39,562 nucleotides of DNA from Oscillochloris sp. ZM17-4 (GTDB lineage: Bacteria; Chloroflexota; Chloroflexia; Chloroflexales; Chloroflexaceae): positions 4,422 to 43,983 of the forward strand of contig NZ_JAIEWN010000012.1 in NCBI RefSeq assembly GCF_019599295.1, read 5' to 3'. Shown here piece after piece: positions 18,540 to 33,407 of the stretch. Numbering within the stretch: position 1 is the first letter of the stretch; every line of letters starts with the position of its first letter. Under the pieces are notes generated by a model. It searched no databases. It was not told where the DNA came from and saw only the letters and a list, made by a program, of their open reading frames with translations. Position numbers and translations under genes: made by a program.

Positions 18540-19145
18540 TCAATAGCTTTGAAGCAAGTGCGGGCGTAGTGTGAAAATCTGCTTCACTAGTTCATGGTAG
18601 CGCCCGTGACGTTCTGCGTACCTAATGAGTTCGCGTGCCTTTCCGTCCTTGCTAGATGTCGGAAAGGTCTCGTGGTCGATGTTCAGCGTGTAGCAAAGGC
18701 CATTGATCTCTTCATTGCTAAAGTGTTGTGTCAGTAGTTGATAGATAGTTATTCGGTCAAGCTTCTCCACGAGCGATGCAATCTTGACCGCTGTCTGATC
18801 GCCCGGCCGCGATGGATCTACTGTGGGGAGCGGCCGGTTTATCGAACCATCGTGGTAGAAATTGATCGAAATCTTGATAATGTTATTTCCGGCCACATCT
18901 TGAAATTGCACATCCCCGATAGCGTTTTCTTTGCCGAAGGAGATAAGCGTCTGACCGTTTGAGGCTTCTTTACCGGCCAGAACTTCGAGCAAGTATTTCA
19001 TGTCGGGCGTCTTAGTAAACTCCTCTGCCAAGGGTTCACCCTGAACTGCCGCTATCAGAGCTCTGGCAAGCTGAGCGGCGTTCGCCTGCTGCCCGGTGGG
19101 CACCATGCCCTGGAGGGCTTGCTGTAGCTCTTGGGAGGTGATCAT
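18540..19145 (-). CDS. Small effector-associated-domain (EAD) protein, last gene of the conflict cluster
   Basis: The 201-residue protein has three parts: a helical N-terminus (1-60), a short beta segment (~70-95, IGDVQFQDVAGNNIIKISI) of the kind often found beside such domains, and a C-terminal helical domain (~128-197). The last part has ITIYQLLTQHFSNEEINGLC, then LNIDHE and GKARELIRYAERHGRYHEL. This is the pattern of the death-like EADs described by the Aravind group in bacterial NTPase conflict systems, which act as adaptors by like-with-like binding. The STAND-CHAT protein of this cluster carries a matching EAD. The ATG overlaps the radical SAM stop by four bases (ATGA), so translation is coupled. 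No enzyme motif is seen. Confidence 0.65.
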   Translation of the reverse strand: MITSQELQQALQGMVPTGQQANAAQLARALIAAVQGEPLAEEFTKTPDMKYLLEVLAGKEASNGQTLISFGKENAIGDVQFQDVAGNNIIKISINFYHDGSINRPLPTVDPSRPGDQTAVKIASLVEKLDRITIYQLLTQHFSNEEINGLCYTLNIDHETFPTSSKDGKARELIRYAERHGRYHELVKQIFTLRPHLLQSY

Positions 19146-20662
19146 GCTGCAGCCCTTTCTACTGGGTTTGGAGCGGAGTATTCGGGCGCGAACGTGGCAA
19201 TACGCAGGGCCTCCAGCCGTAAGAGCGCTGGAAAGAGGGCCTTATAAATAGCGCAGTTGGGTGAGCGGATGTCGTAACGGCCTGTCGCCCTGTAGGTTTG
19301 CACAGGGCAGCCACCGGCACACCAGTAGCGCCATGTGCAGCTCTGGCATCCCTCCTTAGCGTCGACCGATACATTCTGGAGGCCGATCACCGAGCTGCGC
19401 AGCTCGTGTAGGGGGTCGGCGGCGAATATCGTTGTGATGGGCCGCTCAATTTCCATCGGACATTTCGCTATCTGCCCGTGCTGGTCGACCACCAGATAGC
19501 TGCTGCCCGCAGCGCAGGTATGATCGTGGGCGGCTAGAAAATTCGCTTTGTCGACGAGCGATTCCAGCAGGCTACGCCGCGGGAGGCGTTGCTCAATATG
19601 GCTGAGTGCGGCCAGAAGCGCTGCGATGATGTGCTGCTCGCCAAACCGTAAGTGCGTCTCACAGGCCGATTGCTCATGCTCGCGGTAAAAGCTTAATGTA
19701 AACGGCAGATCGAGATCGAGCAGGTAGTCAAACAGCTGCGGGAGCCCATCGAGGGTATACTCAGAGACGGTGATCGCGATAGTGGGGACCAACCCAGCTT
19801 CCAGCAAGGTCTGTATCCCGCGTTGCACATATACAAAGGAGCCGCCGCCATTAACAAGGCGTCGCTCCGCGTCGTGGTGTGCACCGATGCCATCGAGAGA
19901 GATGCAGATCCCGATCCCCTGCTCCCGCAGCTTTCTCGCCGTACTGGCCGAGATGGCAATGCCGTTGCTCAAGACGAGCGACTGTACGCTGACAGAACTT
20001 ATCGCGGCTTTCTCCTGGGCATAGGCGTTGAGCGAGAGGACAAGACTCAGGTTCAGCAGGGCCTCGCCGCCGGAGAACTTGAGCTTAACCTTGGAGAAGC
20101 CATGCTGCTCAGCGCTGGCGAAGAGCATGTCGATCGTGTGTCGACCGACCTCATGCGACATGCGATCAGCCGTCTTGCGGATATAACAGTATGAGCAGCG
20201 CAGATTGCAGTCGTTTGTGCTGTGCAGCCATGCGGCCAGGGTCTTTGCCGGCTGGAAGATGGGCATGAGCTCGCGGCCTGGCTCGATCAGCAGATCGTAG
20301 GCCGCGAGCTGCGCGATCACGGCGTGCGCGCCGCTGACCTGCGGGGTGTCCGTCGCTGCGATCTGCTGGGGGAGAGCGAAGCTGTCGAGCAGATGGGCCG
20401 CCCGCGGGGTCAGCACGATCACGCCCGCCGCCGAGAGCGGGTTGAAGACAAACTCCCGACCATCGGAAAGCTGATCTCGGTACAGGCCGGGGGCCTGCTG
20501 GAGCTGAGCCGGCAGAGGCACCGATATGCCAGGCACAAAGGTGTTTGTGGATGTGTCGTCTAGGCCGAGACTACAGTCACAGTCGCAATCTGCGGTGAAG
20601 ATCTCGGCATGCGGAATCATCTGCCGATGCATGAGATCGGGCAGGGCGCGGGCAATGGGCAT
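19142..20662 (-). CDS. Radical SAM/SPASM protein with Cys-Asp-rich N-terminus
   Basis: The start at ATG 20662 has an AAGGAAG ribosome site six bases away; a TTG two codons earlier is less likely. The protein has 506 residues. The radical SAM cluster motif CNLRCSYC gives Cys 152, 156 and 159, followed by LKFSGGEALL, LSNG and ISLDG. The C-terminal SPASM region (~385-475) has many cysteines, including GCQSCTWRYWCAGGCP. Residues ~55-135 resemble the small peptide-binding N-terminal domain of peptide maturases (FVFNPLSAAGVIVLT). Before it, residues 20-45 hold DCDCDCSLGLDD, which I do not recognise. Such enzymes modify peptides or proteins (anSME, FxsB, PqqE types). No separate precursor gene is visible, so the substrate could be a cluster protein, its own N-terminus or a peptide encoded elsewhere. 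Confidence 0.82.
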   Translation of the reverse strand: MPIARALPDLMHRQMIPHAEIFTADCDCDCSLGLDDTSTNTFVPGISVPLPAQLQQAPGLYRDQLSDGREFVFNPLSAAGVIVLTPRAAHLLDSFALPQQIAATDTPQVSGAHAVIAQLAAYDLLIEPGRELMPIFQPAKTLAAWLHSTNDCNLRCSYCYIRKTADRMSHEVGRHTIDMLFASAEQHGFSKVKLKFSGGEALLNLSLVLSLNAYAQEKAAISSVSVQSLVLSNGIAISASTARKLREQGIGICISLDGIGAHHDAERRLVNGGGSFVYVQRGIQTLLEAGLVPTIAITVSEYTLDGLPQLFDYLLDLDLPFTLSFYREHEQSACETHLRFGEQHIIAALLAALSHIEQRLPRRSLLESLVDKANFLAAHDHTCAAGSSYLVVDQHGQIAKCPMEIERPITTIFAADPLHELRSSVIGLQNVSVDAKEGCQSCTWRYWCAGGCPVQTYRATGRYDIRSPNCAIYKALFPALLRLEALRIATFAPEYSAPNPVERAAA

Positions 20663-20711
20663 CGGCAACTTCCTTCTACAGCGTGGGTGGCGGTCGTGCA
20701 GTCAGCATCCA

Positions 20712-21635
20712 TCAGGACGCGAGTCGACCGGCAACGGCATACCCGGTATAGTGCTCGTCGTCGCGGAGGAGCACCTCAACTGGCGCAAACCCGGTCTCAC
20801 GCAGCCGTGCAGCCATCTGCTCGGGCGACGAGAAGATGGCAAATACGGCCTCGGGCTCTTCGCAGAGCAGCACCTTGAGGTTAAAATCAGACTTGCCCTC
20901 CTGCGGGTCGGCGATCAAGAAGGCCCCGCCGGGCCTGAGACAGCGGTATGCGGCGCTGATCGTAGCGAGCTGATCGGTGGGGTGCAGATGGTGGAGCGCG
21001 TAAGAACACGTCACGAAATCGACACTCGCCGACTCAGCCTGGCTCAGGTAGCCCACCATATCGGCATTGATGATCGCCACCTGGATCGCTGCCGCCTGCT
21101 GATTGATTCGTGCGGCGCGCTCGCCAGCAATCGCCAGCAGCGCCGGGGTAAACTCAACCGCGCTGATATGGGCTGCCATACCTGCCTGTGCCAACCTCGC
21201 AGCGATATGGCCGGTTGTCCCGAGTGTCCCTGCTCCCAGATCGAGCACATGTAAGGGCCACCTGGTACGCTTCGCATAGGCGACAATTGCAGCGCCGATC
21301 GCGTCGTTGGCTTTATGGATATGCGGGATGCCAGGACCCTCCAGCCGCTCTGGCGTGACCCAGCTCTGGAAGACTATCTGCGCCATCTCCTTGAACTCGG
21401 CTGGCGTCAGTTGCTCCAGCACCCACCCCTGAATCCACTCGGCATGGTATCGTTCGAGGCTCCCATAAGTCGCGAACAGCCCGTCGATTGCACGTACGAT
21501 CAATGCGGTCTTCGTATACAGGCTACTGGCGGGGTCGATGCCCAGGCCCTCGAAGCGCTGTTGCAGGATCGAAGCCTGCGGCGCCTTGGTTGGGATGGCC
21601 TGGAGGAATTCACCAAGAGACGGCTGCTGTGCCAT
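20712..21635 (-). CDS. Class I SAM-dependent methyltransferase
   Basis: In this 307-residue protein the SAM-binding motif I is VLDLGAGTLGTTG (130-142), followed by an acidic strand end (ISAVEFTP), motif II-like AIINADMVGYL and the post-motif VDFVTCSYALHHLHP. The motifs are complete, so it should be active. The first ~110 residues are helical, without a known motif (YHAEWIQGW, FKEMAQIVFQSW), and may hold the substrate site. It lies between the TPR-NTPase and the radical SAM gene with 19- and 49-base gaps, in the same operon. A methyltransferase next to a radical SAM maturase suggests a modified peptide or protein, but a small molecule cannot be excluded. The ATG has an AAGGA ribosome site. Confidence 0.82.
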   Translation of the reverse strand: MAQQPSLGEFLQAIPTKAPQASILQQRFEGLGIDPASSLYTKTALIVRAIDGLFATYGSLERYHAEWIQGWVLEQLTPAEFKEMAQIVFQSWVTPERLEGPGIPHIHKANDAIGAAIVAYAKRTRWPLHVLDLGAGTLGTTGHIAARLAQAGMAAHISAVEFTPALLAIAGERAARINQQAAAIQVAIINADMVGYLSQAESASVDFVTCSYALHHLHPTDQLATISAAYRCLRPGGAFLIADPQEGKSDFNLKVLLCEEPEAVFAIFSSPEQMAARLRETGFAPVEVLLRDDEHYTGYAVAGRLAS

Positions 21636-21654
21636 TGGGGTTCCTTATTCGTAA

Positions 21655-24429
21655 TCACACGTCTTGCTCAGATAGCTTCCGCCGCCTGACATCGTGCAGC
21701 GTGTCGAGCAGGCTGGTATCGTGTTTGAGCAGGTCGCGGCTATCGTTTCGCCAGAAGTCGATGAGGTACGTGCAAAGCATATCGATGAACTCGGGCTGGA
21801 TACGCTGGAGCCGGTCGCGGAGAACATATCTGGCAGCCTCGAAGTTGCTGCGATTGAACAAGAGGGCTTGCGCGCAGGCCTCGCCATAGTGGGCAATTGC
21901 CCGGCGATAGTGCTGCTGCGAGGGTGTGGACGTAGCCAACTCAAAGGCGATATTACCGAGTATCAGCTCCATACGGCTCAGGAGCTCGGCGTAGCGCTGC
22001 CCTTGGGGCAGTGCGCAGTGCTCGACCTCCTCTGAGAGCGGGACTACGGCATCGGTGGTGTTTTTCAAATAGTGTGTCAGGATGAGCGACACTAGGCCAT
22101 CGACAACCAGCGGCTCGGCACCGACTACAGCGGCGAGCCTACGGCTTTCCTCGAATGAGTCCTCCGCCTTCCACCACTCCGATCGGTGAAGCCAGAGCCG
22201 CCCCTTATAGTTCAGCGTCCTGGCCAGATCCGCCTTGCGGTTACGACGGCGCAGTATGCGCTCACTATGCTCAAGGTAGGCGGCGCTCTGCTCGGCGCGT
22301 TTTTTTAAGTCGCTGTTACCCATGCGGAACTTCAGGAAGAAGCTCGGCCACTCCTGGCGCAGGTAGTGCTCTAGCTCCAGGTGGATGGGGCCGGCTGTGG
22401 GGATGCGATCATTTGCCACAGAGTTGGGGTCGAAGATCTGAGCTGCCTTAACGGTGAGGCTCACCTCGCGCCAGTGATAGATAGTGGCCAGGTTTGCCAG
22501 GGCCTTGGCGTTCTCGACCTCATCCTTGAAATGCTCGAACACCTGTGATGCCAGGTAAAAATAGTGCACAGCAAGGTCATAATTGCCGGCATCACGCTCG
22601 ATCATGCCGATCGTACTCCAGCTAAAGCCAACCTGTTGCTGCTGCTCCTCTTTCAGGTTCTGGCGAAGCTTCAGCGCCTGAAGGGCCTCTTCGCGCGCGC
22701 GCCCGTACTCACCACGCTGGCGGTCGAGGTTGGCGATATTATTCATGCAGGCTGCGACCCCCGCATCGTTCATCATCGCCTTTTCGATGCCCAGGCTGCG
22801 CGTATTCCAGCTGCGGGCCTGATCATACTCGCCGAGGGTTGTGCTGAGTGTCGCGATCTTGCGGTAGATCTGGGCCAGGTCGCTCTGCCGGCTTGCCCAC
22901 GCTGGGCTTGTCGGGTCGATCTGGCCTAGGAGCTGTTCGAGCACGCTGCGGCTCTTGTGCTGGTACTCCAGGGCGCGTTTCAGGTCGCTACGTTCCTCAA
23001 TACTGCCTATAAGGTTATAGATCTCGTAGCGCACCTCGCTGCTGACCTGCTCCTGGCGGTTCAGTATATCGAGGATGTGTCGGGCCTGGGCGTCATCGTG
23101 GCGGTAAAAGGCCAGGCGGGCCCGGCTGATTTCAAGCTGGTCGAACTGTTCGGCTGTCAGCTTCGCCACATTGGCCTCGATTACCTCCAGCATGAGCCGA
23201 CAGAAGTCGACGGCCTTCTTGCGTCCATAGTCGTTAAAGAGCGTGATCGCTTTAAAGAGGACTTGCCCAATATCGAGATCAGAGTTCAGCTCGTAGTAGA
23301 GTTCTTCGATCTCTAGGGTGCGGCGCTCAAGGGTGTCCGTGACTCGAGCGAGCTTCTCCTGATATGCCTCGACCGCTTTCCGCGCAATCACCCGCCGCGT
23401 CGCTGGCGGATAGGCCGCATACTTGCCGATCAAATAGCGCATCTCATCGTGCAGCGTATACTCGTGCAGGTCTGCGCGATATTTGATGAAAGCCAGGTTC
23501 TGGAGTTGGGCCAGCACATGCTCAGCCTCGGCGGGCGTTAGTCCCATCAGGTGGGCGAGCATGGGCGCGTCGCAGCGCTTATAGACGACGGCCATATGCA
23601 GGATTGCCGCGTTGACCTGGCTAGGAAGTTCGCGTACCCACGAGACCATTTCACGCTCGAAATCCTCTTTGGGGACCGCAATCAGCTCATCGACATCGGC
23701 GTTCAAGAGAATCCACCCAAGGGCCAGGGCGAGCAGAATAGGCCTGCCCTCCGCCAGGTCATAGATCTTGTCGAGGCTCGCCTGATCGATAAGCTCGGGG
23801 AGATGTTCGCTGGCGAACCGCTGTTGCATATAGGTGCGGGCATCCTCCCGGGTGATCCCCGTTAGCCAGCGCTGATCAATATGCCCCCCAAGATATGCGG
23901 GCGGGATAGGCTCGCGGCCGGCAGTGAGGACAATCGTCTGCCCGTGCAGGCTGGGGAGAAACCTTTCGAGTAGCCAGGTGGCGAAGCTCTGGTGGGGAAT
24001 ATTTTCGAGGGTGTCGAATCGCAGCACTATTTTCGTAACGGTTCTGGCAAGCGCATTGTAGTCGGCCACAAATGCAGCAATAAGCTCCTGCTCATTCTCG
24101 TACGCCTCCTCTGATGTAGCAGGCTCCTGGTCCTGTCGCGCTAAGAAGGTTGTGAAGTGCTCAGAGCCAAGCTGGCGGGTCAAGCTATTGATCAACCCAT
24201 CCTGCGTCTGATTCGCAAAGTCGTAGATATCGATGAGTGCCGGGACTACGCAGCCAAGCTGTTCAAACTCCGGGCCGAGCACCTCAAGCAGCTTAGTCTT
24301 GCCGATCCCGCCATCGCCGACGAAATGGAACATCCAGACCGGCTGCGCCGGATCGAGCAGCTTGAGGGCGCGCTGAATCTCTTCTGTGCGCCCGACAAAG
24401 CCTGTCCCAGTGGCATCAAAGAATGTCAC
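21655..24429 (-). CDS. STAND-type NTPase with C-terminal TPR repeats
   Basis: The start is GTG 24429, which overlaps the upstream stop as GTGA. The protein has 924 residues. FVGRTEEI and Walker A GDGGIGKT (38-45) open the NTPase, and Walker B is IVLRFDT (134-140); sensor and winged-helix-like parts follow (LTGITREDARTYM, LAEGRPILLALA). From ~390 to the end it is helical, with TPR-like units (EYDQARSWNTRSLGIEKAMM, GEYGRAREEALQALKL, GNYDLAVHYFYLASQVFE). STAND NTPases are switches that assemble on sensing a signal through their repeats. It has no visible effector domain and may act as sensor for the others. It resembles the TPR-NTPases that accompany radical SAM genes in the FxsA/FxsB systems of actinobacteria, though I cannot confirm orthology. 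Confidence 0.8.
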   Translation of the reverse strand: MTFFDATGTGFVGRTEEIQRALKLLDPAQPVWMFHFVGDGGIGKTKLLEVLGPEFEQLGCVVPALIDIYDFANQTQDGLINSLTRQLGSEHFTTFLARQDQEPATSEEAYENEQELIAAFVADYNALARTVTKIVLRFDTLENIPHQSFATWLLERFLPSLHGQTIVLTAGREPIPPAYLGGHIDQRWLTGITREDARTYMQQRFASEHLPELIDQASLDKIYDLAEGRPILLALALGWILLNADVDELIAVPKEDFEREMVSWVRELPSQVNAAILHMAVVYKRCDAPMLAHLMGLTPAEAEHVLAQLQNLAFIKYRADLHEYTLHDEMRYLIGKYAAYPPATRRVIARKAVEAYQEKLARVTDTLERRTLEIEELYYELNSDLDIGQVLFKAITLFNDYGRKKAVDFCRLMLEVIEANVAKLTAEQFDQLEISRARLAFYRHDDAQARHILDILNRQEQVSSEVRYEIYNLIGSIEERSDLKRALEYQHKSRSVLEQLLGQIDPTSPAWASRQSDLAQIYRKIATLSTTLGEYDQARSWNTRSLGIEKAMMNDAGVAACMNNIANLDRQRGEYGRAREEALQALKLRQNLKEEQQQQVGFSWSTIGMIERDAGNYDLAVHYFYLASQVFEHFKDEVENAKALANLATIYHWREVSLTVKAAQIFDPNSVANDRIPTAGPIHLELEHYLRQEWPSFFLKFRMGNSDLKKRAEQSAAYLEHSERILRRRNRKADLARTLNYKGRLWLHRSEWWKAEDSFEESRRLAAVVGAEPLVVDGLVSLILTHYLKNTTDAVVPLSEEVEHCALPQGQRYAELLSRMELILGNIAFELATSTPSQQHYRRAIAHYGEACAQALLFNRSNFEAARYVLRDRLQRIQPEFIDMLCTYLIDFWRNDSRDLLKHDTSLLDTLHDVRRRKLSEQDV

Positions 24430-27098
24430 AGTCTACCCTCATCATCGCGCGGCGGTCGCATCGTTTGCATTGGGTCGCCATAGAGTACATAGGCGGCCCA
24501 GGCCGCATCCGGCGCTGCTCGGAGCTGGAGATCGTGGCGCGCTAGCCGGACAGACTCGCCGATCATCTGGCCGGTCATCAGGTGGGTGAAGAATTTTACG
24601 GCGAACTCGGTTGCACTCTCTGGAGTGGTGTTCCACTGATTTACGAGGCAATGATTCGCTCCACTCCTGAGCACTTCCGCCCCCACATCCACGCCGGAGA
24701 GCGGAGACGACGTGTGCGCCCTGAGCTGGTCGCGTAGCTTGCCCACGGGCGCGTGCATATCTTCCCGCATCTTCTCTAGCGCATCCAGCAGGTCGGCGAG
24801 CGCGCGGCGCCGCTCCAGGTGGTCGATCAGCACCTGCATCTTCGCAAGCTTTCCATCACCGCTCAGGTTTTCATAGTCTACACCCAAAAGGTAAAACCCA
24901 CAGAGCGTCTTGAGCTCATTATCATTCAGGCTCTCATCCATCAGGCCCAGCAGCAGTAGCTTAAACGGCTGGAGCTCTTTTCCATCGAGGAGTTGCATCT
25001 TGCCGGTCGTCGAAGGTTGCGTGTCCAGGCTGCCGCCGGGTCGGGGCTGGTGGACGCCATTGATGAAGACCAGCGGCCGCTGTTTAGTCAGGTACGAGCC
25101 CACGTCATGCAGCCGGGCCGCCCTGCCGTCCGCACACATAAGGCTGGCGACCACCCTATGCTCATCAGCGGAATACTCGGCCGTAACAGGTCCGGCCAGG
25201 TAGATCAGGCGATATTTCTGGCGGCTAAACAGCTCAAGCAGGCGTGGCCGGCTGGGAAATTGCTCCGTATCGCAGATGACGCGCCGGGCGCTTAGAACAG
25301 GCGCGATCTGCGCGATCTCCGTTTCCAGCGACGAGGCCATAGGGTCATCACGGGCACCCAGCGTAACCAGGAGCGCTTTTAGGGGCGTTGGGGGCGCACT
25401 ATGATAGCCTGGGAGGTGCTCATCGCTCGCCCACTGCGACTGCGGCAGCGCCCGCCCGATGCTGTGGGTCAGGCAGAGGAAGCTCTCGCCAGAGCGCATA
25501 AGCTCATAGGGCACAGACGCGCCGGTCACACTGATCTCCAGGGCGTTGCCGGCCTCCTGGATGATCTGCGCCGTCGCATCAGGGATGAGGTCGGTGCGAA
25601 TGAGCGTACCTACTTGATCGATGCGGTCGCCCATATCGCCAGCGGCGACACCGGCATCAAAGAGCTCGATCACCTTCACGACATCATCTGCGCGGATAGG
25701 CTTCTCGTAGCTGCGCTCCGCCTCCCGCGCGGCCTTCCACGTTGCCAGAACGCGCTGGGACTCTTCGATCACGATATCGAGCCGCACCTTCGTGCGCTGC
25801 TCGATAAACCGCTCAATGTTGCTGGCCAGTTCATCCCGGAAGCAAAAGAGCTCCTCTTCGTTCTTGATCTGATCGGCCAGGAGCCGGGCTGTACCCAGGC
25901 TCTCCGGCCCCGTGTAGATGGCGCGGAGCCGCTGCGTGCAGCGTTCGCGCAAGACGAAGTTAATCTTCTCGTCGGGGCTATCGTAGCAGCGGTAGATGCG
26001 GGCCAGCAGCAGGAGCTCGCCGCGTAGCCGTGCAGCGATGGCCTCTTTCCCAATCTGGCTATCCTGGAGGTCCTCGTTGAGCCGCCACTCATAGATCTGG
26101 AGCGCGAGCTCGCAGTGGTTAAAAAAGCCCTCGCGGTCGGTAATACTCCAATGGCGGACGAGCAGCCGGCGGAGCGGCGCGACAACCTCGTTGCTGTTGA
26201 TCTTCTTCTCATAGCGTACGATGCCAGTTGCCCGCATCATTGAGATCAGATCGCCGAAGCCGTGGCTATAGCTCTCATCCATCGCCGAAAGGGTGTCCTC
26301 GTCGAAATAACGGTACACGGCCATCTCGCGAATGCGCTGATAGATGGCCTCGTTGAACTCCACCTTTTGCTCAAGCTTTGCCCGCATCTCCTGGACCAGG
26401 TGCTCGACCAGGGCTAGTTCTCTTTTGCGCCACTCGTGCGCCGAGTCTTGCGTCGACTCCTGGGTGAAGAAGGTTGCGATACACTCATTGCCGAACGGCA
26501 GCCCAAAGGTAAGGTAATGGATATGGGTGTGGAGCGACCGTATCGACGCGCGCACTTTGTTCTTGGCGATCAAGTAGCGCAGCTGATTCTCGGTTCCTTC
26601 AGGGTCGCAGAGTGGGATCTGGATGGATTTGATCTGCGTGCGCAACTCGGGGGTCGCCCGCGAGAGGAGATCGACGCGGAAGGGCCAGATGCTGCTGAGG
26701 AAGGCGATGACCTGGCCCTTGTAGGGCGGGCGGGTCAGCGGCACAAGCAGATCGAACACCTCCCGGCTGATCGCCTTCTGCCCGTCGCTGCCTGGCGCAT
26801 CATCAATAATCAGCACCTTTCTCTGGCCCCGGAAGGCCGGCCCATCGATCATGCGCTCTAGGGCGCGCCGAAGCTGCTCCTGGCCGGCTGCGTAGTCGTC
26901 AGGGTGCGATGGAGCTGCGGGAAGGTCAATCCAGACCGTCTGGAGGTTCTTATCCAGCGCATGGAACTCCACCTCGCGCAGCCAGTGAGTTTTTCCAACC
27001 CCCTGGCTGCCCCAGAGCCAGATGATCGGCTCCTCCTGATCGTCGCCGGCGGCGAGTTGCTCGATACGTCGGGCGATAAGATCTGCTAGTCCAGCCAT
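24426..27098 (-). CDS. STAND NTPase fused to a catalytically dead CHAT domain with an inserted EAD
   Basis: The start at ATG 27098 (890 residues) is chosen because the NTPase begins ~30 residues later. A 36-codon in-frame extension to 27206 exists but looks non-coding. Walker A is GSQGVGKT (30-37) and Walker B VLIIDDAP (95-102); a helical middle follows to ~500. Residues ~505-885 form a CHAT domain (caspase-like protease fold): VPYELMRSGESFLCL, GANHCLVNQWNTTPESATEFAVKFF and AAYVLYGDP are typical. The catalytic His motif (AGHG in the family) is here YLAGPV (633-638), and the catalytic Cys motif (LNACxS) is FINGVHQ (678-684), so both catalytic residues are absent. Between the Cys position and the C-terminal half an EAD is inserted (~710-781, DESLNDNELKTLCG, LLGVDYENLSGDGKLAKM). 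It probably acts as a scaffold rather than a protease. Confidence 0.8.
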   Translation of the reverse strand: MAGLADLIARRIEQLAAGDDQEEPIIWLWGSQGVGKTHWLREVEFHALDKNLQTVWIDLPAAPSHPDDYAAGQEQLRRALERMIDGPAFRGQRKVLIIDDAPGSDGQKAISREVFDLLVPLTRPPYKGQVIAFLSSIWPFRVDLLSRATPELRTQIKSIQIPLCDPEGTENQLRYLIAKNKVRASIRSLHTHIHYLTFGLPFGNECIATFFTQESTQDSAHEWRKRELALVEHLVQEMRAKLEQKVEFNEAIYQRIREMAVYRYFDEDTLSAMDESYSHGFGDLISMMRATGIVRYEKKINSNEVVAPLRRLLVRHWSITDREGFFNHCELALQIYEWRLNEDLQDSQIGKEAIAARLRGELLLLARIYRCYDSPDEKINFVLRERCTQRLRAIYTGPESLGTARLLADQIKNEEELFCFRDELASNIERFIEQRTKVRLDIVIEESQRVLATWKAAREAERSYEKPIRADDVVKVIELFDAGVAAGDMGDRIDQVGTLIRTDLIPDATAQIIQEAGNALEISVTGASVPYELMRSGESFLCLTHSIGRALPQSQWASDEHLPGYHSAPPTPLKALLVTLGARDDPMASSLETEIAQIAPVLSARRVICDTEQFPSRPRLLELFSRQKYRLIYLAGPVTAEYSADEHRVVASLMCADGRAARLHDVGSYLTKQRPLVFINGVHQPRPGGSLDTQPSTTGKMQLLDGKELQPFKLLLLGLMDESLNDNELKTLCGFYLLGVDYENLSGDGKLAKMQVLIDHLERRRALADLLDALEKMREDMHAPVGKLRDQLRAHTSSPLSGVDVGAEVLRSGANHCLVNQWNTTPESATEFAVKFFTHLMTGQMIGESVRLARHDLQLRAAPDAAWAAYVLYGDPMQTMRPPRDDEGRL

Positions 27099-27220
27099 AG
27101 ATATCAGCCCTGCTGATTGTTGACAGAGATAGAAGCTGAGATCGCAATCAGGTATGCGGTGGGAAGGGCAATGGCGGCTCCTTCCAGAGGTAGCGCCCGA
27201 CCGCATTGGGCGGCTAGAGC

Positions 27221-28540
27221 TTAGAGGAAGAGCGCGTGATAGGGCGTATAGATAGGATCGCTCCGCTCAAGAACCGTGCGCAGCTCCTTTTTGTCGGCGT
27301 CCCAAAGCACCAGTGGGACAAGGTCGACGCCCTGAGCAGCAAATTTAGCCCGGCCCACATCGTCACGTTCGATGATCGCGATGAGGAAGGCGACATCGCC
27401 GCCGATCTCGCGAATTTTAGCGATGATGCTCAGGAGCAGGTCGACGTGGATGGAGAGCACAAAGACCCCGATGGCGCGCAGCCCTTGAAATGCCTGTTCG
27501 TTCAGCTGGATCACTCCTGGTTCGGGCTCCCAGTAGCGCTCGAAAGACAACCGCGCATCGCCAAGCTCGGCAAAGACGCGATGCACCACATCAGCGGTGG
27601 CAAACTCATCTTCTGAAAACGAGCCAAGCTCAGAGCAGAACAGGACGTATGGATCGGACGGGGACTCCAGATAGCGCGTGAGGACGTGGCGCAGCATAGG
27701 TGCTACGAGATCGCGCACCTCTTTGCGGTTGAATCGGGCTATATAGAGCCAGGAGTCGCTAAACTTATTGACCGAGAGCAGGAACTCGCCGGGGAACGTG
27801 ATTCGTCTGACCCAATCCTTCAGGTCAAGCAGTTGCTGGGATACGTCGCTCTGGAAGGGGGCCACGGGGGGGGCTACTGCGAGCGGAAGCAGGGGGTGTG
27901 ACGAAGGAGCGGAGCTGACTCCATCGACGGGGGCCTTTCGGACACCCGGGATCATAATCTTGCGCTCGTCGGGCCCAATCTGGGCAAGGGTATCGCGTGA
28001 GGCCAGGGCCATATATTTTGCCGCTGGCAACCGCAGATCTTCGGCGATATGCTTACGGGTTGTGCCGAACAGCGTCACGACGCTGCCGATCCTCTGCTCG
28101 TGCTGGCGCCAGAAGTCGACCATCGCCTGAGAATGGCTACCAGCCAGCAGGATCAAGTTCTCGCACCCTGCCACCTGATCCGCGGGGACAAGCTCATAGT
28201 TCAGACGGCTCATGATTCTGTGCAATGTGCCGAGCGTGTAGCGCTTGGCCTGAAATGCCTCCGGCGCGACGAGCTTTCGCCAGGGGTCGGGCTGCACTAT
28301 ATTGCGGGCAATATAGTCAGCGATCTGATCGAGAAGATCGCCGTATTGGTTTGCCAGGATTTCGAATTGCAGGTCGAGGTTAGTTGAATACGGCTGGGTT
28401 GGCAGTGCGCTGCTCTCGTTGTCGAGGGTGTGGATGGCCCACTTATATCCCAGCCGCTCGCGCGTTGACCAGATGCCGGCCTCGATAAGCTTCAGCAGGA
28501 TCTCATTAAGCCCCAGCGGATGTGTAGCCTGGCTATCCAT
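27221..28540 (-). CDS. Protein with divergent, probably inactive orotate-phosphoribosyltransferase-like domain(s), first gene of the cluster
   Basis: The 439-residue protein has a C-terminal part (~240-415) that follows the OPRTase plan: GEFLLSVNKFSDSWLYI resembles the family's GxFxLxSGxxSxxYI, and GVFVLSIHVDLLLSI...REIGGDVAFLIAIIERDDVG lies where VVxVDDVxTTGxS...GAxVxxxxVxVDR is expected. The acidic pair and Thr-Thr-Gly of the PRPP loop are missing. The N-terminal part (~50-190) shows a weaker similar plan (YSTNLDLQFEILANQY, then ENLILLAGSHSQAMVDFW and GSVVTLFGTTR), so it may be a tandem. A Pro/Ser linker (205-230) joins the halves. I infer a ligand-sensing or scaffold role rather than nucleotide synthesis. 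It leads the operon behind a strong promoter, 122 bases before the STAND-CHAT start. The PRTase reading is by pattern only. Confidence 0.5.
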   Translation of the reverse strand: MDSQATHPLGLNEILLKLIEAGIWSTRERLGYKWAIHTLDNESSALPTQPYSTNLDLQFEILANQYGDLLDQIADYIARNIVQPDPWRKLVAPEAFQAKRYTLGTLHRIMSRLNYELVPADQVAGCENLILLAGSHSQAMVDFWRQHEQRIGSVVTLFGTTRKHIAEDLRLPAAKYMALASRDTLAQIGPDERKIMIPGVRKAPVDGVSSAPSSHPLLPLAVAPPVAPFQSDVSQQLLDLKDWVRRITFPGEFLLSVNKFSDSWLYIARFNRKEVRDLVAPMLRHVLTRYLESPSDPYVLFCSELGSFSEDEFATADVVHRVFAELGDARLSFERYWEPEPGVIQLNEQAFQGLRAIGVFVLSIHVDLLLSIIAKIREIGGDVAFLIAIIERDDVGRAKFAAQGVDLVPLVLWDADKKELRTVLERSDPIYTPYHALFL

Positions 28541-28994: not shown

Positions 28995-29056
28995 ATGGCT
29001 TTTGTGGTACCGTTGGGTCGATCAAAACCCGACAACGGAAAGCGCACAAAAGCCAT
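28995..29056. other. Foldback hairpin over the transposase start
   Basis: ATGGCTTTTGTG (28995-29006) pairs with 29045-29056, with an inner CCGTTG.../...CAACGG stem. The transposase ATG (29055) is in the right arm. Such structures near IS ends limit translation from outside transcripts, as known for IS10. Confidence 0.5.
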
Positions 29057-30077
29057 GGATTCTATTCTACCATTGCTCCTCTGCCTGGTCGCTGAAGTCA
29101 GGATGACGACACTGCGCCAGCTTGGCCGGATTGTGCTGGCCATGCTCGCGATGACGGGACGGGTCACGATGCTGGGACTCTCGCGCTGGACCGGAACCGG
29201 TGGCAGCTATCGCACCATCCAGCGCTTCTTTCATACGACCCTGCCCTGGGCCGCGATGCTCTGGATCTTCGTGCGGACGCATCTGCTCACCCCCGGCGAT
29301 GACATGCTGCTGGTCGGCGATGAATGTGTGGTGACGAAAGCCGGGACGGAGACCTACGGCGTGGATCGCTTCTTTTCCAGTATCTTTGGCAAACCGGTGC
29401 CGGGGGTCGCGCTCTTCGCGCTGGCCCTGGTCAGTCGTACGGAACGGCAGGCCTTTCCCGTGCAGATCGCGCAGGTGCTGCGTGAACCTGCGGGAACGCC
29501 GCCCCCAGCCGCGCCGGTCGCCAAACGGAAACCGGGCCGCCCGAAGGGCAGCAGCACCCAGGCCAAGGCCGATGCACCCCTGAATGCGGAACATACCCGT
29601 ATCAGTGCCATGATCCAAGGTCTCCTGACCCGCATCGGGGCATCCCTCACGCTGCGCTATCTGGTGCTGGATGGGCATTTTGGCAACCACAACGCCGTGC
29701 TGATGGCCCGTCGCCTCGGCTTGCACCTTATCTCAAAGCTGCGCAGCGACTCGGCGCTCTATTATCCGTATGACGGCCCCTACGCCGGACATGGCCCACA
29801 CCGAATCTATGGCGAGCGGATCGACCCAACGGCCATCCCGGAACGCTTTCTGAAGCAGACTACCGTGGAACACGAGATTGAGACGCGCATCTATCAGGTT
29901 GAGGCGCGGCACGAGACCTTTGACCAACCGCTGAATGTGGTCATGATCGTCAAGACCCATCAGACCACCGGCAAACAGGCGCACGTCTACCTCTTCAGTA
30001 GTGACGGCACTCTGGCCTGGGATGTCCTGCGTGACGACTACCAGCTGCGGTTCCAAATCGAGTTTGTCTTTCGGTAG
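29055..30077 (+). pseudogene. IS4-type DDE transposase, 3' end cut off
   Basis: The start at ATG 29055 gives 340 residues. The DDE core shows GDECVVTKAGTETYGVDRFF (first Asp near 81), LRYLVLDGHFGNHNAVL (second Asp near 208) and YQLRFQIEFVFR at the end. The last is the start of the IS4 YREK motif (Y-x2-R-x3-E-x6-K), and the K is missing because the frame meets a TAG supplied by foreign DNA from 30073 on. A Pro/Lys-rich KRKPGRPKG patch precedes the second Asp. The 3' part and right end are not found on the far side of the IS pile. It should be inactive. Confidence 0.8.
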
Positions 30078-30211: not shown

Positions 30212-31516
30212 GGTGGTGTCCCTCATATTCCGTGATGAGGTAGGCTGACGAGATAAACATAATGTATCCTCGCGTGGGAGTAGTAGCCTTCTGCACGACG
30301 AGGATTGCATGGACTGGGCAACCTTGTACTGTCCGAACCGTGACTGTCGCTGTTACGGTCTGCCCTTTGCGCAGGGAATGTTGGTAAAAAATGGCTCTAG
30401 CCGTGGGGCAAAACAAGGGTTGTGTCGGGCGTGTGGATGGAGCGTATCATTGACCGAAGGTACCGCCTACTTCAATTTGGAAACCCCACGGTCGGTCTTC
30501 GAACTGGCCGTGCGTGCGCTGGCGGAAGGGATGAGCATCCGGAGCACCGCGCGGGTGGTACAGGTGGATAAAGACACCGTGTGTGCCTGGTTGCAGCGTG
30601 CAGGTGGCCATAGTCGGCTGCTGATGCTGTATTTGTGGCGGCAACTCCACGTCACCGAATGCCAACTCGATGAGCTATGGAGCTTTGTGCATACCAAGGA
30701 GCAGCATCTGCTCCAAGCGACAGAATGGTCGGAGAGCTACGGCGATGCATGGGTGTGGGTGGCATTTGCCCCCTGTTGGCGTTTGGTGTTGGCCTTTGTG
30801 GTCGGTAAGCGCACGCAAGCCGAAGCCAATCTGCTGCTGCAACGGGTCGTTCATGTGACGGATGCGCATATTCCCTTCTTTACCAGCGACCAACTGCCGG
30901 CCTACCAGACGGCACTGCTCGAAGTCTATGGAACCTGGTATCAGCCACCACGGCAAGGCTCACGCGGCCGTCATCCGGCCAAACGCCGCATTCCGCTTCC
31001 AAACTTGCGCTATGCGCAAGTGGTGAAACGACGCGAGCGCGGTCAGGTCGTGGAGGTGAGCAGGAAAGTCGTGTTTGGCAGTGACGACGACCTGGCTGAT
31101 TGCCTGGTTGCCTCGTCCGCGAGCACCACCATCAATACCAGTTTTGTCGAGCGCGACAATCTGCGCTGGCGCACGCTCAATCGTCGCTTGACCCGCAAAA
31201 CGCTCGGCTTTTCCAAGGACATTGGCTGGCTGGAAACCCAGCTCTGGTTGTCGATGGCCTACTATCACCTTTGTTTACCCCATCTCAGCCTGCGTGAAGC
31301 GCTGTCCAACCCACAACCTACCCGCGGTGAGGGTTCGCCGCGCATTTGGCGAGAGGTCACGCCTGCGATGGCAGCCGGTATGACCGATCACGTTTGGACG
31401 ACGGAAGAGTTACTCGGCTTTCGCCTTCCAGTTGCCTTTCTCGATGAGTTGCCAGCAATCGAACACTTGTTCCCTAATCCAGATCTTGCCCATCACGGAA
31501 TATGAGGGACACCACC
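30212..31516 (+). mobile_element. Intact IS1-type insertion sequence (1305 bp, 8-bp target duplication)
   Basis: Perfect 26-bp terminal inverted repeats (30212-30237 and 31491-31516, GGTGGTGTCCCTCATATTCC...) are flanked by the direct repeat CACTTCAT (30204-30211 and 31517-31524). One transposase gene fills the element. It sits inside the insB gene of another IS1-type element. Confidence 0.95.
30309..31505 (+). CDS. IS1-family-like transposase with zinc ribbon
   Basis: The 398-residue protein has an N-terminal zinc ribbon (CPNRDC at ~8-13, CRACG at ~39-43) followed by a helix-turn-helix (~70-95, [19 protein letters not shown]). The catalytic part shows [10 protein letters not shown] (first Asp), [14 protein letters not shown] (second Asp) and [29 protein letters not shown] in two pieces, with the Glu of the DDE triad, as in IS1 InsB. 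At 398 residues it is a single-frame, enlarged version of IS1 InsAB without the usual frameshift. The stop codon lies in the right terminal repeat. It looks intact. Confidence 0.9.
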
Positions 31517-31676: not shown

Positions 31677-33407
31677 GTATCCTCTCCATAATCGCTGGAG
31701 TCAGCCGGCGGGCTGAGCAGCGAGGCGCGAGCGCTCGGCAATGCGCTCAGCAAGCGAGGGTGTGCTGGCGGGGCTGACCAGCCGGTCGCGTAGGTAGTGA
31801 AACAGCCCCACACCAAGCTTCGCAGCCGTGGCTGCAATCGTCTGGAACGTATCCCAGGCACGCGCTCCCACCCGCGACTGCGGCCCGAAACTCACATCGC
31901 GTTTGCGCACCCGCCGCCGCGCGGCAAGCTCCATGTCGTTGTTGTGCAGCGGCAACTCTGGCAATTCCAGCACCGCCAACAACTGCACGCGCTTGTCGGC
32001 AGTCTTGCCGATGCGCTCCTCCAACGCCGCGTAGTCCGTCTTGTAGGCTACCAGTGAGTCGAAGGCCGCCCTCAGACGTCCCCGCTCCTCCTCGCTCGGG
32101 GAAAGTCGGTATTTCAGCAGTGCTCGGTACAGCTCCCAATACTGCGTGCGATACGCCTGGAGGTCACGCAGATGGCGCGCCACAACCGGCCGCAGCTTCG
32201 CGTAGTGCCGCCAGTCATGCACCCAGCACAGCCCGTGGCCATCACTCAGATGGTCATACACGGTGGCGTCGTCGCTCAGCAGCCACGCCACAATCGGCAC
32301 ACTGCTCTGGGCATGGTACGCCGCCACCGCCAGGGCGTCGCCGACCGGTTGGAGCTGCTGCCGACCGAGCGTGATGCCTGCTGCCGTCAGCTGCTCGTGC
32401 AGTTCCGTTCTCGTCAGGTCGCGCTCCCAGGGGAGCGCCAGCACCAGCCGGTTGCGGAGCGGCGCTGGCAGGCTGGTTCGCTCCAGCCAGCTCACGGCCT
32501 CGTGGTTGAGGCGGAAGCGCGGCTCTCGCCCCCACAGCACGGCGAGCACATCCTGGCGTGTGCCGCCGGGCCGCGTGTGGTAGCTGGTGAACAGGGCGTT
32601 GCCGACCACGTGGCAGACTTCGTTCTGCCCGTCCACCCGGGTCGAGGTCTGGTCGGTAGCCACCCACGGCCCACTGGCAAGCCCGGCCTGATGGATGGCG
32701 TCTGCTTCTTCGGCCCAGCGACCCGTGGAGTCCGCAAGCAGTCGCGCGACGGTTCCCGCGCCAATCGACACGCCCATCGTCCGCAGGAACTGCAGCAAGG
32801 CCGGCTGGCTCACATTCGTGGTGTCGTGGCCGAGCGCCGGGATGAGGGTCTGGATGCTGGGAGAAAAGCCACCGTGGTAGCCAGGTGGTAGCGGCGCCAG
32901 GATGGTTTGGTTCGTGGAGGGGACGAACCACTCCTCACGCAGGAAGCGGATGACTTCGACCTGGAAGATGAGGTTTTGGGCGATGGTTTCGCGCGTGCCG
33001 TTGAAGCGCGCACCCTCAGGCAGGGTCGCGGGGTCGACCACGCAGCGTTCCTCGCGGGTGACGGTGAGGGTTTGGTTCTTTTTGGGCTTGCCGCGAGGGG
33101 TGCGGGTCTGGCGCTCGACTTCCGAGGAGTGGTCGGTCGGCGTCGGCTGCACCGATGGCTTGATGTTCGGCTTCCCTGCGCCACCTTTCAGGCGGGCGTT
33201 CTCATCGCGGAGCTGCTGGTTCTCGGCGCGCAGGGCGGCGTTTTCTGCAGCCAGCGCCTCGATGATGTTGAGCAACTGCTGAACGACCTCGCGGGTTGCG
33301 GGGTCGGCGATTGCGTCAAGGTTGACATCGGGGAGCTGCATATCAGGAAGTCTACCAGACCTTGGTCGGCCTGTCACCCAGCGCTCCAGCGATTATGGAG
33401 AGGATAC
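31677..33407 (-). mobile_element. IS66-family insertion sequence, single-gene type (1731 bp)
   Basis: Perfect 24-bp terminal inverted repeats lie at 31677-31700 and 33384-33407 (GTATCCTCTCCATAATCGCT...). Only a tnpC-like gene is present, as in the small IS66 subgroup without tnpA/tnpB. The flanking 8 bases differ (TTTGATAG left, ATCGTTTT right), so there is no target duplication, and the DNA on the right is unrelated to the IS1 gene on the left. A deletion or recombination has taken one flank. Confidence 0.9.
31701..33341 (-). CDS. IS66-family transposase (TnpC-like)
   Basis: The start is placed at ATG 33341 (MQLPDVN, 546 residues); ATG 33377 is also possible. The N-terminus has a coiled coil (~15-50, [20 protein letters not shown]) and the zinc-binding-region remnant. 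Then come the DDE core with [16 protein letters not shown] (first Asp), [15 protein letters not shown] and CWVHDWRHY (second Asp region), and [21 protein letters not shown] carrying the Glu. This matches the short IS66 transposases. The gene seems intact and fills the element between its terminal repeats. Confidence 0.88.

Follow-up and report, generated by a model that had tools for sequence, protein, structure and literature searches.

P0001, a 439-residue protein with zero matches in Pfam, NCBIfam, PADLOC or PDB sequences, is encoded by the first gene of a six-gene STAND NTPase operon in Oscillochloris sp. ZM17-4, and sequence comparisons indicate that its C-terminal half descends from an orotate phosphoribosyltransferase (OPRT) whose catalytic motifs have been lost. 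We tentatively propose, at slightly less than even confidence, that P0001 is an OPRT-derived pseudoenzyme that serves P0002, the NTPase encoded next to it in an immune-like operon, as a non-catalytic recognition or adaptor subunit. The window analyzed here is the whole 39,562-nucleotide stretch of contig NZ_JAIEWN010000012.1 (positions 4,422 to 43,983 of the forward strand), and the coordinates below refer to it. The features discussed are the following.

27221 to 28540, minus strand: P0001, 439-residue orphan whose gene heads the operon; its C-terminal half is OPRT-derived as judged from sequence, with the catalytic motifs lost
27305 to 27820, minus strand: OPRT-like region of P0001 (residues ~241–412), alignable collinearly with L003 PyrE
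27895 to 28540, minus strand: N-terminal half of P0001 (residues 1–215), a possible, unproven second and more degenerate OPRT-like domain
24426 to 27206, minus strand: P0002, AAA/STAND-type NTPase with a C-terminal CHAT domain; EAD7 at residues 752–814
21655 to 24429, minus strand: P0003, TPR-containing STAND NTPase with a sub-cut-off match to FxSxx_TPR
20712 to 21635, minus strand: P0004, SAM-dependent methyltransferase
19142 to 20668, minus strand: P0005, radical SAM/SPASM peptide-maturase-like protein; best model PapB (below the cut-off), with an N-terminal DCDC
18540 to 19145, minus strand: P0006, 201 residues, EAD7 at C-terminal residues 134–195, predicted homotypic partner of P0002

The P0001 open reading frame is a real gene heading a tight operon. 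It begins with an ATG codon preceded by a GGAG ribosome-binding site, and its codon composition is gene-like in the annotated frame, unlike that in the other frames, and matches that of the operon. Since the intergenic gaps across the six genes are so short (14, −4, 19, 43, and −4 bp), the genes form one operon. The GC3 value was 0.71 for P0001 and 0.60–0.75 for the six operon genes, compared with 0.86–0.92 for the neighboring host genes, suggesting that the block at 18540–28540 was acquired recently as one unit. Three transposase-like ORFs were located immediately upstream of the operon (28995–30077, plus strand; 30309–31505, plus strand; 31701–33377, minus strand); given these IS elements, a rearrangement at the 5′ end of the operon or a disruption of the locus is conceivable. 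An ORF similar to the first of the three was also found near the Oscillochloris module in locus L091. Elsewhere in the window, P0007 (15514–18138) contained an in-frame tandem run, GGRRQEAGGRRQEAGGRRQEA, representing a short coding repeat.

The ancestry of P0001 was examined using profiles built from a panel of PyrE proteins, consisting of 31 members at first and enlarged to 61. These OPRT profiles scored 15–20 bits on the C-terminal half, whereas the best scores were 4.3–7.4 for 5,000 shuffles and 8.0–9.9 for natural decoys; for the 20-bit score, the shuffle maximum was 6.4 (n = 5,000) and the best natural decoy reached 9.9. Local pairwise alignment of the C-terminal half with L003 PyrE gave a z value of ~10, and none of the 350 natural decoy segments equaled this half by either maximum or mean score. 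Conservation was strongest in a beta-alpha-beta unit at residues 371–411, which constituted the main profile match. In addition, an unbiased phmmer search of 400 Chloroflexota genomes with P0001 retrieved, among chance matches, an ORF (G132:C136) that is a genuine PyrE carrying an IEDVVTTGQ loop and is collinear with residues 241–410 of P0001. Taken together, the profile, shuffle, pairwise, and decoy comparisons indicate that the C-terminal half is OPRT-derived. The alternative that P0001 is an unrelated orphan resembling OPRTs by a chance match of a single beta-alpha-beta unit would fit the short span of the significant profile match (just 41 residues) and the failure of single-sequence structure prediction, but it is improbable in light of the z value, the decoy result, the retrieval of a PyrE in an unbiased search, and a collinear match that runs on over ~170 residues.

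Compared with PyrE (TIGR00336), P0001 is collinear in sequence over residues 241–412, with the closest likeness at the C-terminal beta-alpha-beta unit, but it differs in having neither the PRPP loop nor the catalytic-loop lysine and in possessing an extra 230-residue N-terminal half and an operon context. The PRPP loop motif ([DE][DE]xx[TS][TSAN]G), which was found in 60 of the 61 panel OPRTs, was absent from the entire P0001 sequence. No lysine was present in residues 315–344, the stretch aligned with the flexible catalytic loop, where the catalytic-loop lysine (K.YGT...EG) would be expected. Because of these two losses, the phosphoribosyltransferase reaction is, on sequence grounds, very unlikely to be carried out by P0001, in agreement with the first-pass annotation, which had described a dead enzyme. 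Its further statement that the PRPP loop is replaced was borne out in that the motif is missing throughout, but the exact replacing segment is ambiguous: MAFFT placed VIQLNEQAFQG at this position, whereas LSIHVDLLL had been assigned before, and the motif is missing in either register. A separate host PyrE with a good profile score is encoded elsewhere in the genome (G000:C95), which counts in favor of the pseudoenzyme reading of P0001.

The N-terminal half gave a less definite picture. OPRT profiles scored 0–2.2 bits on this half, within the shuffle range, and hhalign detected no match between it and OPRT and no mutual similarity between the two halves of P0001. Pairwise alignments to Chloroflexota PyrE proteins (L059–L066), on the other hand, were collinear, with z values of 5–7, and were in register with the earlier assignment that put ENLILLAGSHSQ at the PRPP loop; the best of them (L061 PyrE, z of 7) was equaled by 9 of the 350 natural decoys. 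Thus, of the earlier description of P0001 as a tandem of two OPRT halves, the order of elements and the ENLILLAGSHSQ register proved right, but the profile and decoy scores leave the tandem architecture possible yet unproven; likewise, the broader description of a degenerate OPRT-like protein heading a STAND operon is supported as regards the operon and the C-terminal half of P0001 but was not demonstrated for the N-terminal half.

Structure prediction was also considered. AlphaFold2 run on the single P0001 sequence produced a model with a pLDDT of 38, which was too poor to judge the fold; a fold search from this model was uninformative and was rejected for that reason. A second model was guided by alignment A5; because the OPRT rows of A5 cover the C-terminal half and 20 N-terminal residues, this model does not count as independent proof. 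According to this guided model, the C-terminal half, together with residues 7–30 as the first helix, would form a type I PRTase with a core pLDDT of 70–86. It matched OPRT structures with a Foldseek E value of 3e-6 and VIA-align Z scores of 12–13 (~3.2–3.6 Å over 170–187 residues), a partly circular result in that the resemblance was imposed by the OPRT alignment. The first-pass annotation had named a predicted fold other than that of type I PRTases as its refutation. No such fold emerged, but the sole good model rests on the OPRT alignment and is not a fair test of the N-terminal half.

These models bear on the possibility that P0001 is a true tandem, with a degenerate OPRT domain in each half and the two paired internally in imitation of the OPRT homodimer (a pseudo-dimer), which we regard as a serious contender falling somewhat short of an even chance. 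In addition to the collinear, in-register N-terminal alignments, residues 55–170, for which A5 contains no aligned OPRT rows, were modeled in the alternating, PRTase-compatible order helix-strand-helix-strand-strand-helix-strand-helix (pLDDT ~45–65). Conversely, the same residues were all helical in the single-sequence model, itself of low confidence, and the dissimilarity of the two halves, the profile scores, and the decoys also weigh against this possibility. A tandem arrangement is compatible with either an adaptor or an effector role for P0001.

Both NTPases encoded downstream of P0001, as had been noted previously, were confirmed as STAND-type NTPases with a P-loop and a Walker B motif (GSQGVGKT and VLIIDD in P0002; GDGGIGKT and IVLRFD in P0003). 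The CHAT domain of P0002 has neither the catalytic His nor the catalytic Cys, since the GHG/SACK motifs of its close relatives L044 and L088 are changed to YLAGP/INGVH. Alignment with L044 placed the EAD7 segment of P0002 inside this CHAT domain, while L044 and L088 keep the CHAT active site and have no EAD7. EAD7 (PF19960) exceeded the cut-off in P0002 and P0006, and no further copy is present in the genome. The first 130 residues of P0006 had no good family match and included a repeat-like strand segment, IGDVQFQDVAGNNIIKISI; this N-terminal part is a candidate effector or maturase substrate.

Orthologous loci were identified using P0005 and its relative in G171 (alignment A1) as queries. 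They occur in other Chloroflexota, Nostoc, and Sulfurovum, and the ~48 loci examined shared a pattern of variable upstream genes followed by a 450–820-aa NTPase, a STAND-TPR protein of ~900–1,500 aa, and a radical-SAM enzyme. The proteins encoded upstream included trypsin-like proteins with EAD9 or EAD11-like domains, Trypco1, TIR, SIR2, and CHAT proteins. The NTPase/STAND-TPR/radical-SAM module with exchangeable effectors (L085–L092 and L165–L204) is possibly an undescribed immune module.

No P0001 relative was found by phmmer or OPRT-profile searches among the ORFs of ~65 loci (48 operon orthologs and 17 EAD7 or CHAT loci). P0001 homologs were likewise not found in the plasmids, viral contigs, genome contigs, and 100 relatives searched, in all 158 genomes of the class, or in 120 genomes of the G171 family, and the 400 genomes of the phylum yielded just the one true PyrE in addition to chance matches. 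Transketolase-like, Lon-like, and solute-binding proteins were judged by eye to be such chance matches. Since no homolog was found in the orthologous loci or in the wider searches, P0001 is a singleton in an exchangeable slot, and its co-function with the core rests on a single operon because no homolog shows repeated linkage.

On this basis, we infer a working model in which the STAND-type NTPases of the operon would act as a switch, with P0001 as its first component. A trigger would be sensed by P0001, by the TPRs of P0003, or by both, and P0001 would bind the adjacent NTPase P0002. After the trigger, NTP-driven assembly of the NTPases may expose EAD7; P0002 would then recruit EAD7-tagged P0006 through the EAD7 within its dead CHAT domain. 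P0004 and P0005 would modify some peptide or protein belonging to the system, and P0006 is the candidate substrate or, alternatively, the candidate effector. The recognition or adaptor role, P0002 binding, EAD7–EAD7 recruitment, the substrate of the maturase, and any ligand are thus all putative. The first-pass annotation had suggested that P0001 serves as a sensor, for example of PRPP, orotate, or a nucleotide-like alarm molecule; because the PRPP loop is lost, PRPP is unlikely to be the ligand, while a different one, for instance orotate or a nucleotide, is conceivable. Several observations count against the preferred recognition/adaptor reading: the first-gene slot elsewhere holds effectors and no known sensors, P0001 contains neither an EAD nor another recognized coupling domain, its link to the core is seen in a single operon, its PRPP site is destroyed, and the upstream IS elements raise the possibility of a disrupted locus. 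Because the upstream slot holds exchangeable effectors in the ~48 related loci, an effector or adaptor role should, by analogy, compete with a sensor role on equal terms.

The main rival to the recognition/adaptor reading is that P0001 is itself an exchangeable effector, a PRTase-derived toxin with a new activity or a migrated active site that would harm the cell upon STAND firing. Related modules encode trypsin-like, TIR, SIR2, and CHAT effectors upstream of the STAND-TPR/radical-SAM pair, and retrons and a DprA–PRTase antiphage system probably use PRTases as effectors (PMC9122126). We nevertheless consider an effector role less likely, as P0001 is missing the PRPP loop and the catalytic-loop lysine and has no EAD for coupling to the NTPase, the EAD7 tag being carried by P0006 instead. 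The retron and DprA–PRTase systems resemble the present operon in placing PRTase-fold proteins in defense-like operons but differ from it in that P0001 has no PRPP loop, and neither a reverse transcriptase nor DprA was detected among the six operon proteins by Pfam or PADLOC. Less probable still is a decoy or guard that mimics host pyrimidine-synthesis enzymes which a phage attacks or hijacks, such that interference with P0001 would set off the STAND proteins: P0001, as a catalytically inactive look-alike of a nucleotide-biosynthesis enzyme, does adjoin STAND NTPases, but no phage factor is known here and P0001 is far diverged from the host PyrE.

The operon is of a known kind, namely an EAD-coupled STAND conflict system, in which the OPRT-derived pseudoenzyme and the EAD7-carrying dead CHAT domain are new. 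EADs occur in a paired arrangement and have been predicted to link the core to an effector through homotypic contact, inactive caspase-superfamily domains are common in EAD-coupled systems, and radical-SAM peptide-processing accessories have been reported (Kaur et al. 2020, PMC7159879). Like those NTP-dependent conflict systems, the present operon has one EAD within a core protein and another on a different protein of the operon, along with TPR-bearing STAND NTPases, an inactive caspase-superfamily domain, and a radical-SAM peptide-modifying enzyme. It differs in that no MoxR-vWA core was recognized, its core EAD7 lies within a dead CHAT domain, and its genes include those for an OPRT-derived protein and a methyltransferase. 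The operon also resembles the FxSxx-COOH system (FxsB radical SAM, STAND/AP-ATPase-TPR) in that a radical SAM/SPASM enzyme adjoins a STAND-TPR protein, but no FxSxx peptide or metallopeptidase was recognized, P0005 is closest to PapB, and the FxsB and FxSxx_TPR models scored below their curated cut-offs (58 bits against 370, and 28.7 against 300, respectively).

That P0001 is the first catalytically dead, possibly tandem, OPRT-derived recognition or effector plug-in of a STAND/EAD7/radical-SAM module, with a dead CHAT domain repurposed as an EAD7 scaffold, is a conceivable though doubtful claim. If true, pyrimidine-biosynthesis pseudoenzymes would be a further class of component in the STAND immune modules of bacteria, and the operon would provide a testable case in which two dead enzymes, OPRT-like and CHAT, have been retained for recognition or as scaffolds. 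Given the recurrence of the EAD-NTPase/STAND-TPR/radical-SAM core, one may also ask which peptide is the target of the maturase.

PapB makes Cys-Asp thioethers. In the radical-SAM maturases of the module, an N-terminal Cys/Asp motif (DCDC, CDCDGGDCAC, or DCAC) was observed in most of the 48 orthologs, ~20–110 residues from the ORF start (P0005 orthologs in L044, L085–L092, and L165–L204). This motif could be a core peptide that is fused to the maturase and modified by it, or it could provide an additional ligand for a cluster.
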